DNA of 64,000 bases from Akkermansia muciniphila (GTDB taxonomy: Bacteria; Verrucomicrobiota; Verrucomicrobiia; Verrucomicrobiales; V1-33), in contig CAMAUV010000014.1 of the NCBI GenBank assembly GCA_945861415.1, positions 1 through 64,000 of the forward strand, given 5' to 3'. The notes under the pieces are model-generated. The model was not told the DNA's origin. It ran no database searches and saw nothing but the letters and a program-made list of their open reading frames with translations. How positions within the stretch are numbered: the stretch's first letter is position 1; each line of letters begins with the position of its first letter. Of the stretch, positions 35,192-38,214 are shown piece after piece. The translations under genes and the position numbers were made by a program.

Positions 35192-35448
35192 AATATTTTC
35201 GCGCGACAAAGCCGCGACAAGAATGAGCCGCTCAGCCACGGAACCCGGCACCGCCAATCGCAACCAATATCGTGGCCGGGAAGCTTCAACTTTCAGAGGG
35301 AGCAGAGTAATTCGAGGCGGCTTCCGGCAGCAAGCGAAGGTGAGCTGAGCTTTGAATAAATGCGGCCCCCCGAACGAGCGCCGGCAATGCCGGGACTGCG
35401 GTGAAAATTTACGGTGACGTGATGGATGCTTCGGCACTATGTATCGAA
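35192..35448. promoter_or_regulatory. Divergent promoter region between the haem dehydrogenase and DUF1080 genes
   Basis: These 257 bases must carry both promoters. A short perfect hairpin CCGGCA-A-TGCCGG lies at 35383-35395, about 55 bases before the DUF1080 start. The AT-rich AAAATATTATG lies directly at the dehydrogenase start. I cannot assign -35/-10 boxes with confidence. Confidence 0.35.
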
Positions 35449-36807
35449 ATGATCAAAGCTCTACTCTTTCTACTTGCCGTTGCCACGCTCCCCGCAGCAG
35501 ATGATTCCCTGAAACCCATGTTCAATGGCAAGGACCTTACCGGTTGGGTCCCCATGAACATTGCGCTGGGCACATTCAGCGTGGGCAAAGACGGCACTAT
35601 CATCTGCACGGGCAAACCCGTGGGAATGCTGCGCACGGAGAACATGGTGGAGAACTTCATCCTCGAACTCGAATGGCGGCACCTGATCAGTGGCGGCAAT
35701 AGCGGTGTGTTCGTCTGGGGCGACGGCATACCGGCTCCGGGGAGTTCGTTTCCGCGCGGCATCGAAGTCCAGGTGCTGGACAACGGCTATAACGCGAAGG
35801 GCAAGAACGAGTGGTTCAGCACGCACGGCGACATCTTTGCCGTGCAGGGATCAAAGCTGACGGTGGCCGGCCGCATTTCCCCAAACGGGCAGCGCAGCTT
35901 TCCCATGGAGGAGCGCAGCAAGTCGTCGCCGGAGTGGAATCACTACCGCCTTGTCGGTAACAATGGCGACCTCAGCCTCAGCGTGAACGGCAAGGAAGTC
36001 ACCATCGCCAAAGCCGCGTCACCCCGGAAGGGTTATCTCATGCTGGAGAGCGAAGGCTCAGAGATTCACTTTCGCAACGTGCGCTTTAAAGAACTGCCCT
36101 CCACCAATCCGAAACCGGAGGAAATCGCCCGGGATGCCACGGGCTTTGTCCCCATCTTCACCGGCATCAATCTCGACGGCTGGAAAGTGCCCGAGGGCGA
36201 CAACGGCCACTGGAAAGTCGCCGGCGAAAACATTGACTACGACGCCGCCAGTGAGGCGCCGGGCGAGAAACATCTTTATACTTCTAAGGCGTATTCCAAC
36301 TACACCCTCATCGCCGACTGGCGCATCAAAGAGACGCCCTACATCAACCCTCGCACGCGCAAGATCCTGCCCGACGGCACCGAGGAGAAAGGCCCGGACG
36401 GCAAGCCGCTCGGTATTCCGCTGCCGGACAGCGACAGCGGCATTATCCTCGGCGGTGATCAGCGCTTTCAGGTGAATATTTGGTGCTGGCCCATCGGCAG
36501 CGGCGAGATGTACGGCGTCCGCGGTGATCCAAAAACAACTCCAGAACTCCGCGCTGCCGTCACGCCGAAGATGAAAGCGGACAAGCCCATTGGCGAGTGG
36601 AACCGCTACGAAATCACGCATCGTGACGGCACCGTCACCGTCCTGCTCAATGGCCAGGCCGTCATCCCCGGCGCGAAAATCCCCGACCTGCCTGCAAGCG
36701 GCCCTATCGGTCTCCAGCACCACGGTGGCAAGGACGAGGCAGGTACGTGGAGAAGCCCGCCCTCATTGCTTCAGTGGCGGAATCTGTTCATCAAAGAGTT
36801 GAAGTGA
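35449..36807 (+). CDS. Secreted protein with two DUF1080 (3-keto-disaccharide hydrolase-like) domains
   Basis: The 452-residue product has a signal peptide (MIKALLFLLAVATLPAA) and two concanavalin-like DUF1080 domains. The first runs from about residue 23 (LKPMFNGKDLTGWVP; IEVQVLDNGYN) to about 210. The second runs from about 228 (FVPIFTGINLDGWKVPEGDN) to the end (PIGLQHHGGKDEAGTW, LLQWRNLFIKEL). DUF1080 proteins bind or hydrolyse sugar derivatives, and some act on 3-keto-disaccharides made by periplasmic dehydrogenases. This fits its divergent neighbour at 32501. The ATG at 35449 is preferred over 35401 because it begins the signal peptide. Confidence 0.88.
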   Translation: MIKALLFLLAVATLPAADDSLKPMFNGKDLTGWVPMNIALGTFSVGKDGTIICTGKPVGMLRTENMVENFILELEWRHLISGGNSGVFVWGDGIPAPGSSFPRGIEVQVLDNGYNAKGKNEWFSTHGDIFAVQGSKLTVAGRISPNGQRSFPMEERSKSSPEWNHYRLVGNNGDLSLSVNGKEVTIAKAASPRKGYLMLESEGSEIHFRNVRFKELPSTNPKPEEIARDATGFVPIFTGINLDGWKVPEGDNGHWKVAGENIDYDAASEAPGEKHLYTSKAYSNYTLIADWRIKETPYINPRTRKILPDGTEEKGPDGKPLGIPLPDSDSGIILGGDQRFQVNIWCWPIGSGEMYGVRGDPKTTPELRAAVTPKMKADKPIGEWNRYEITHRDGTVTVLLNGQAVIPGAKIPDLPASGPIGLQHHGGKDEAGTWRSPPSLLQWRNLFIKELK

Positions 36808-36844
36808 CTGCCGGACCTAGCAAAGGCAGTGGCGAAGCCACCGT

Positions 36845-37042
36845 GGAGTGCTCCGACTTGTCGGAGCTTTCGGGGCAGGGCGACTTGTCGCCGGGCACTG
36901 ACGCCCGGGCGCGGTAGGAGCCTTTCTTGATCGGGATAACTCCTCGCCGCGAGGGACGCGCCCGGCCAAAGTGCCGCTTCGCTGGGTTGGTGGCGCCGGA
37001 CAAGTCCGGCCGGGACAAAGCTCCGACAAGTCGGAGCACTCC
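36845..37042. repeat. MITE- or REP-like element bounded by a perfect 26-base inverted repeat
   Basis: The arms 36845-36870 and 37017-37042 are perfect reverse complements over 26 bases, and each arm itself contains the hairpin GCTCCGAC-TT-GTCGGAGC (or its AA-loop counterpart). Inside lie further palindromes of the same style: GGCGAC-TT-GTCGCC at 36879-36892 and CCGGAC-AA-GTCCGG at 36997-37010. Just outside, GTGGC-GAA-GCCAC (36829-36841) may extend it. There is no ORF. The nested AA/TT-loop palindromes indicate a mobile or structure-forming repeat, probably present elsewhere in the genome. It lies between convergent genes. Confidence 0.75.
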
Positions 37043-37124
37043 AAAGCCTGCGGCTGCCAGGTTGGCCCGATGGGAAGAACACGGTACCGCAAAGAAGTTC
37101 GGCTGAACAAGGTTCACGCTCGAA

Positions 37125-38156
37125 TCAATTAACTTCGATGATCGCCTTGATGGCGCCGAGGCCGGGATCCGTGAATTTCTCGAAATCCACTGGCACCTCG
37201 TCGAAACGGAGGCGGTGGGTGATCCAGAGGTTGGTGTTGATCTTGCCGTCGCGGATGAGCCCGATGATATTCGTGAAGTCCCGGGGCAGGGCGTTTCGCG
37301 ACGCAAGCAGGGTGAGCTCGCGCCGGTGAAGCACCGGTGCGTGCGGAAAACTGAGGTCCGATGTTGCGATGCCGACATAGACGACGCGCCCAGTGAAGGC
37401 TGCGTATTCAAAACAGGTGGACATGGATTTGGGGCTGCCGGTGGCGTCGATTACTACGTCCGCGAGTTGGCCATCGGTGAGTTTTTCCAAGGCCGCGAGA
37501 GGCGAGCCATCGGGTTGGAATTCGATACTGTGCTGGATGCCGAGGCTTTTAGCGCAAAAATCCAAGCGTGTGCTGACCAAGTCCATGACAATAGTTTTCA
37601 CATCCATCAGTTTCAAAAATTCGAGGCAGGCGAGCCCAATGGGGCCAGCACCGATCACAAGGACCGTTTCCCCTGGTTGCGGATTGCCGCGCTGCACGGC
37701 GTGGCAGCCTACGGCGAGGGTTTCTACCAAGGCTAGTTGATCGTAGGAAAGATCGTTGCCTGGATGAAGTTTTCGCGCCGGAACAGGGAATACCCCCTGG
37801 CGCAGTCCGCCGTTGTTATGGACACCGGTGACTTGGAGGCCGGGGCAGCAATTTGACGACCCTTTGCGCGAGGTAGGAGTGGCGGGGTTATTGATATAGG
37901 GTTCAAGGGAGCACTTGTCGCCAATGTTCACGTTCGTTACGTCATCAGCCACCGCGACGACTTCGAGGCCGAGTTCGTGGCCCGGAATCCGTGGAAAGGC
38001 AAAGAAAGGGAATTTCCCAAGAAAGCAGGAGACGTCCGTTCCGCAGATGCCCATGCGGTGAGTGCGGACGAGTGCCTCTCCCGGGCCTGGCGAGAGTGGT
38101 TCCGGTAAGTCGATGACACGAATGTCCCTTGGTGCGAAAAATTGAATGGCTTTCAT
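37125..38156 (-). CDS. Zinc-type medium-chain alcohol/polyol dehydrogenase, structural-zinc loop altered
   Basis: The 343-residue product is a medium-chain dehydrogenase of the threonine/sorbitol/galactitol type. Catalytic zinc ligands are in GICGTDVSC and PGHELGLEV; the Rossmann loop is VIGAGPIGLACLEFLK, with an aspartate after the next strand (MDLVS) suggesting NAD. In relatives the structural zinc loop contains four spaced cysteines after EPYI; here that stretch reads EPYINNPATPTSRKGSSNCC, so only the last pair remains. It follows the DUF1501 gene by 58 bases and may share its operon, processing a sugar or polyol. The start at 38156 (MKAIQFFAPRDIRV) is well supported. Confidence 0.9.
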   Translation of the reverse strand: MKAIQFFAPRDIRVIDLPEPLSPGPGEALVRTHRMGICGTDVSCFLGKFPFFAFPRIPGHELGLEVVAVADDVTNVNIGDKCSLEPYINNPATPTSRKGSSNCCPGLQVTGVHNNGGLRQGVFPVPARKLHPGNDLSYDQLALVETLAVGCHAVQRGNPQPGETVLVIGAGPIGLACLEFLKLMDVKTIVMDLVSTRLDFCAKSLGIQHSIEFQPDGSPLAALEKLTDGQLADVVIDATGSPKSMSTCFEYAAFTGRVVYVGIATSDLSFPHAPVLHRRELTLLASRNALPRDFTNIIGLIRDGKINTNLWITHRLRFDEVPVDFEKFTDPGLGAIKAIIEVN

Positions 38157-38214
38157 GGAATTTAGCTGAGGTGAATTCAGGTAAGCCATTGCCGTGTCCA
38201 CAGTGTTTCGCTGG

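Follow-up and report, generated by a model that had tools for sequence, protein, structure and literature searches.

A probable REPIN/BIME-like mobile element of Akkermansia muciniphila and a Y1 transposase subfamily that adjoins its relatives

Elements of the general kind treated here are already known, in the accessible portions of the published descriptions, as REP sequences with their RAYTs and as TIRtrons, whose repeats can be self-complementary. A GTAG foot is canonical for REP/RAYT repeats, and a GTGG foot is also described (PMC6006769). TIRtrons (TIRYT) are RAYT-like genes flanked by TIRs, some of them self-complementary; they are known in Acidobacteria, form repeat families in the genome and share the motif GGGGWSAS (PMC3733652). 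Among TnpA_Y1 proteins, class 3 occurs in Planctomycetes and Acidobacteria with atypical hairpins around the gene, a CnGA foot, a Y----Q signature and high copy number, and subclass 2.8 has the NHYH version of the HUH motif, GT[AG]G-footed hairpins and sampled members that are cyanobacterial (PMC6006769).

The element described here lies in a 64,000-nt stretch of Akkermansia muciniphila (GCA_945861415.1, contig CAMAUV010000014.1, positions 1 to 64,000), hereafter the window, and belongs to a family built on a short module, GGA[GC]T-GC-stem-GC-TTT, in which foot and tail are constant and the stem is variable with pairing kept. Like REP, BIME and REPIN sequences with their RAYTs, the family combines short hairpins bearing a conserved 5' foot with an inverted arrangement, a high copy number in relatives, some of the copies apparently extragenic, and a Y1 HUH gene boxed by repeats, the protein of which matches the NCBIfam RAYT model. 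It differs from them in its foot (GGA[GC]T as opposed to GTAG/GTGG; PMC6006769), in its fixed GCTTT tail and a stem sequence that is free between genomes, and in a second hairpin in many units, giving a four-hairpin dimer. With TIRtrons it shares RAYT-like genes flanked by inverted repeats, genomic repeat families and occurrence in Acidobacteria, but GGGGWSAS is not the module found here; this comparison is by description only, and the two groups may overlap (PMC3733652). The hosts, atypical hairpins and copy number of class 3 are likewise shared, whereas foot and catalytic signature are GGA[GC]T and Y---N[PA] here; subclass 2.8 is alike in its NHYH motif and unlike in its feet and sampled hosts (PMC6006769). 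In the published literature searched, as far as the texts were accessible, no description was found of a GGA[GC]T foot with a GCTTT tail, of the four-hairpin dimer or of the pairing with this transposase subfamily. Whole-element dispersal, inward-facing module pairs and a Y1 subfamily found specifically beside the modules assign the element, with a probability of roughly 85%, to REPIN/BIME-like non-autonomous mobile units, for which a RAYT-like Y1 HUH transposase is the most likely means of spread.

The unit occupies most of the spacer between two convergent open reading frames (Table 1). A preliminary description of this DNA had placed it at 36820-37060, which is the correct location with limits a little too wide (the unit extends from about 36841 to 37046), and had given it perfect 26-base ends (arm 36845-36870), correct to one base, as the arm measured 27 nt from 36844. 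The arms as hairpins and the two internal palindromes, all of the pattern arm-TT/AA-arm, were present as described. The arms stand 146 nt apart, each forming its own hairpin of 8 pairs with a loop of TT (left) or AA (right). Element borders were inferred from copies elsewhere, in which conservation ends with TTT/AAA; the window copy departs from this on its left side, with CGT in place of the usual TTT. The left inner hairpin is also visible in copies of another bin (e.g., locus L122). Folded as single-stranded DNA, 36841-37046 reached -69.1 kcal/mol, compared with -44.8 ± 3.8 kcal/mol for 200 shuffled sequences, none of which folded as stably (z = -6.5). When one mismatch was allowed, the 10-mer CGACTTGTCG was not enriched across the window (8 found, 6.2 expected); the improbable feature is the paired architecture rather than the abundance of the 10-mer. 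An Rfam search of 36000-38000 returned no matches at E ≤ 1.

Table 1. Coordinates of the element, its parts and the neighbouring genes in the window
Feature	Positions	Strand	Description
ORF	35401-36807	+	3-keto-disaccharide hydrolase domain
Whole element	36841-37046		Two inverted modules and three outer bases per end; CGT left, AAA right
Left arm, module 1	36844-36870	+	TGGAGTGC-hairpin-GCTTT; foot GGAGT, tail TTT; 27 nt, 100% complementary to right arm
Outer hairpin, left	36850-36867		GCTCCGAC-TT-GTCGGAGC
Inner hairpin, left	36879-36892		GGCGAC-TT-GTCGCC
Centre between inner hairpins	36893-36994		Partly recognisable in the window genome's second copy
Inner hairpin, right	36995-37010		GCCGGAC-AA-GTCCGGC
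Right arm	37017-37043	-	Left-arm module in inverted orientation
Outer hairpin, right	37020-37037		GCTCCGAC-AA-GTCGGAGC
ORF	37125-38201	-	Zinc-type alcohol dehydrogenase

The neighbouring genes do converge, as had been claimed, and this position together with the strong folding would fit an immobile host element, that is, a bidirectional terminator or an RNA structure between convergent genes. A terminator scan of 36700-37200 gave 0 terminator-like sites (0.6 expected): the G+C-rich hairpin and following T run of an intrinsic terminator were not found there, and the run after the hairpins is three T only. In a survey of copies elsewhere, 33 of 61 were intergenic, as is the window copy, compared with 12% of random positions under a crude ORF model; in this crude survey both neighbours could be called for 28 of these 33, and 7 of the 28 lay between convergent genes, which is no excess. 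Whole copies also occur at unrelated loci, and a host element is considered highly improbable. The proposed role in bidirectional termination, for which position is the sole argument, was not upheld.

The preliminary description had named a single occurrence in the genome and its relatives as counting against mobility. The element does recur, as a diverged copy, as lone modules and as copies in relatives, but it is sparse in the window's own genome (G000). There, one diverged second copy was found on contig C34 (71% over query positions 17-142), with a matching opposite arm (85% over 40). A looser pattern gave 6 matches in this genome (backward control, 5): the two window arms, two lone modules with another stem on C23 and C64, and matches on C9 and C49 that look like chance. 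The many copies per genome typical of REP/REPIN sequences are accordingly lacking in the window's genome and are found in relatives, e.g., G330 and G325. Direct DNA search of 57 relatives gave matches only in the window's own genome and in G012, a member of the same family, where a full element with a GACTTGTC core lies just downstream of a gene of the transposase subfamily described below (L345). Modules in congeners of the window's genome carry another stem. A search of the family for a conserved spacer equivalent to the window's site found none.

The exact frame GGAGTGC-stem-GCTTT was found in 12 of 141 genomes of the order (backward control, 0) and, in a named collection, in at least 119 stretches. 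By the labels of their bins, the 119 listed stretches comprise 50 from Verrucomicrobiota, 33 from Planctomycetota, 21 from Acidobacteriota, 11 from Chlamydiota and 2 each from Chloroflexota and Pseudomonadota; nearly all are metagenome bins in which single contigs may be misbinned, and the Chloroflexota and Pseudomonadota occurrences are doubtful. The specific arm pattern, at up to 3 mismatches, matched 8 of 288 genomes of the phylum (backward control, 3), and on reading the loci were mostly variant modules or chance matches. At loci of the transposase subfamily the foot was GGAGT in 116 of 175 modules, GGACT in 55 and other in 4; the conserved foot of REP/REPIN sequences is present here in the form GGA[GC]T, and the canonical GTAG/GTGG is absent. 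Two contigs in bins titled Akkermansia muciniphila (L189 and L186) carry the module, and the L189 element is ~83% like elements of an unrelated bin, a similarity that suggests either transfer or a misnamed bin. At L046 and L056 (G325), the loop portion of the right terminal hairpin is swapped for another palindrome, TCCCGCATGCGGGA, with foot and outer stem intact.

Pairing within the variable stem was scored on 44 unique modules of 26 nt, taken from protein-fetched loci with correctly spaced GGA[GC]TGC and GCTTT as the sole selection. Of 264 variable-stem cells, 199 held Watson-Crick pairs, whereas shuffled stems gave 125. In 149 modules, three stem positions that had not been selected on were paired at all three in 115, at two in 33 and at one in 1.

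Neighbouring modules within 400 bp of each other formed 88 distinct pairs, of which 73 were inward-facing (54-355 bp). Whole dimers are also dispersed, so that the inverted pair as the unit of spread, characteristic of REPINs, is seen here as well. In one Verrucomicrobiota bin, among the first 80 of 847 rows, elements of ~186 bp were 76-85% alike over their full length, with alignments ending at the element borders. By a count from the match listing, G330 carries 13 end-to-end copies of an element from G325 (74-86%), and the whole elements that recur across related genomes have flanks unrelated to one another. In the 73 inward pairs, the three bases outside GGAG were mostly T (123, 118 and 136 of 145 ends), beyond which composition was flat; a few pairs (e.g., L169:7792, L174, L209:4874) that are without the TTT border and may not belong were kept in. 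An orthologous spacer without the element was located in G330 for comparison with G325 as an empty site, but it was too diverged to align.

Target duplications, which the preliminary description had proposed aligning copies to define, were sought in 71 elements, and no consistent direct repeat flanked them. A 2-base match just outside TTT/AAA was commoner than expected (15 vs. 5.7) and was present in 14 of 71 pairs, position-wise scores at all tested lengths lying within z 3.2 of shuffles. Complementary bases at -4 and -7 were slightly in excess in the same set (0.41 and 0.42 vs. ~0.28 ± 0.05). These flanks bear on whether the element could be a MITE derived from a classical DDE transposon, with arms of 27 nt acting as double-stranded TIRs that a DDE transposase cuts in trans. 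Size, long terminal inverted repeats, lack of coding sequence and dispersal of whole-length copies are all as in such MITEs, and the 2-base flank matches are a weak excess in the same direction; however, no consistent target duplication was seen, each arm is a hairpin with free stem sequence, modules occur singly, and one Y1 subfamily is specifically associated with them, which makes a DDE origin very unlikely. In one element from a Chlamydiae bin (L157, 4363-4536), the flanks form a 21-nt inverted repeat, as though the element had landed in the middle of a larger palindrome or the unit were longer there; the right flank is common to this element and one at L212 in the same bin.

At the first 42 Y1 loci examined (12 + 30), the hairpins flanking the genes, where seen, were of other types. 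Of 78 remaining Y1 matches, 60 were then fetched, weaker ones included (18 of 108 being left out), and at five of the 60 the module, in its usual or its GGACTGC form, lies next to the gene. A profile built from these five members ranked three loci, L011, L044 and L105, on the same level (E ≤ 5e-71), all of them retrieved through the hairpin pattern rather than through their protein; the next Y1 gene, at 2e-18, was without a module. The 119 hairpin-fetched loci had yielded no Y1 gene with a canonical Y1 profile; that profile misses this subfamily, of which L105 is a member within that set. By the Pfam Y1 model the five members fall under or near the cut-off (22.7 bits for the first, cut-off 23), whereas all five match the NCBIfam model for REP-associated tyrosine transposases, NF047646 (92.1 bits for the first, cut-off 80), and the sole match in a PDB search was E. 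coli TnpA_REP (4er8, E = 9e-11). N-H-Y-H, with HUH as HYH, and Y-x-x-x-N are invariant in 5/5; the Y---NP form appears as NP in two and NA in three. The HUH motif, catalytic tyrosine signature and profile match of a RAYT are all present in this protein.

The subfamily profile matched 58 of the 141 genomes of the order at E ≤ 1e-20, with 79 matches at ≤ 1.1e-37 and 27 at ≥ 6e-29, as counted from the listing. The 79, together with second fetches of four and with L011 and L105 from outside the search, gave 85 loci. When strict modules up to 600 bp away were counted, 43 of these loci had them on both sides, 20 on one side and 22 on neither. After removal of 9 rows chosen or re-fetched for their modules and 3 fetched by pattern, 73 loci found by protein only remained, and 53 of them had a strict module at a distance of 600 bp or less, with 37 flanked on either side and 16 on one only; variant modules were recognised by eye at some of the 20 without one (L307, L327, L340, L347). 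The corresponding count for other Y1 loci was 0 of 108 (82 canonical, 14 near and 12 far), many of them from module-bearing genomes and two loci without a recognised Y1 having been dropped. A gene flanked by its own repeats on both sides, the arrangement of a cognate RAYT, is thus found in relatives at 37 of the 73 loci. The subfamily is not alone in having a GGAG foot beside its genes: hairpins of another type with this foot flank other Y1 genes at L033, L231, L253, L254 and L279.

A REP-associated Y1 transposase, which the preliminary description had suggested seeking, was found beside modules in relatives, but the window's genome had no subfamily match at E ≤ 1e-20 (assembly 93.9% complete); all three congeners searched have a subfamily gene. 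Those congener genes (L352, L354, L355 and L356, in G001, G002 and G003) are surrounded by closely packed copies of another repeat, which has GGACTGCTGTCAG..TACAGCTCTC and GCGCACGGAGTGCGCCTACC parts and is not the strict module. The window's genome does have an open Y1 gene of 229 codons (C101, 5800-6135; L031), flanked by its own TTAG-footed CCGGTGGC hairpins, which are unrelated to the window element. Among the 12 genomes that carry the exact module, five (G000, G018, G326, G366 and G372) had no subfamily match at E ≤ 1e-37. These genomes, and elements far from any such gene elsewhere, would be expected if the modules were mobile by other means and only gathered around a Y1 gene that does not act on them. 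Such a bystander role is nevertheless judged unlikely, given modules on both sides of the gene at 37 of 73 protein-only loci against none of 108 other Y1 loci, and given that core class and transposase clade cluster: core classes, set after the cores had been seen, required 18 changes on the transposase tree against 39.1 when shuffled (0 of 200 as low). The GAC..GTC-like class, which includes the window's core, did not cluster on that tree (6 changes vs. 6.8 shuffled).

Under the favoured REPIN/BIME-like reading, the mobile unit would consist of two REP-type modules in inverted orientation, each made up of a GGAGT foot, a hairpin and a TTT tail, with a further hairpin on its inner side. From RAYT biology and the anatomy of the unit, a RAYT-like Y1 HUH transposase would recognise foot, tail and hairpin on single-stranded DNA and nick at the feet of the inverted dimer, and the unit would be rejoined elsewhere without target duplication; the subfamily described here is the candidate for moving the inverted dimer. 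The window copy is most likely an inactive relic or a past arrival, in view of a genome in which no subfamily enzyme was found and of congeners whose modules carry another stem.

Overall, the mobile MITE-, REP- or BIME-like family proposed in the preliminary description is borne out by dispersed whole-length copies in other genomes and by the adjoining REP-associated Y1 subfamily. In a broader reading, toward which the evidence leans slightly, these elements would form a REP/RAYT superfamily that extends across the PVC phyla and Acidobacteriota, and perhaps further, whose transposase reads the constant GGA[GC]T foot, the GCTTT tail and the shape of the hairpin. Paired substitutions could alter the stem freely, and the mobile inverted dimer, with up to four hairpins, would bear a genome-specific stem barcode matched to the transposase of that genome. 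A widespread palindromic repeat family, undescribed as far as the literature was searched, gains from these results a candidate transposase and a recognition code (foot, tail, stem) that can be tested. With a constant foot and tail and stems that vary from genome to genome, the family offers a natural series for studying hairpin recognition by REP transposases, the origin of REPINs, and the persistence of copies in genomes that, like the genome of the window, no longer show the enzyme.
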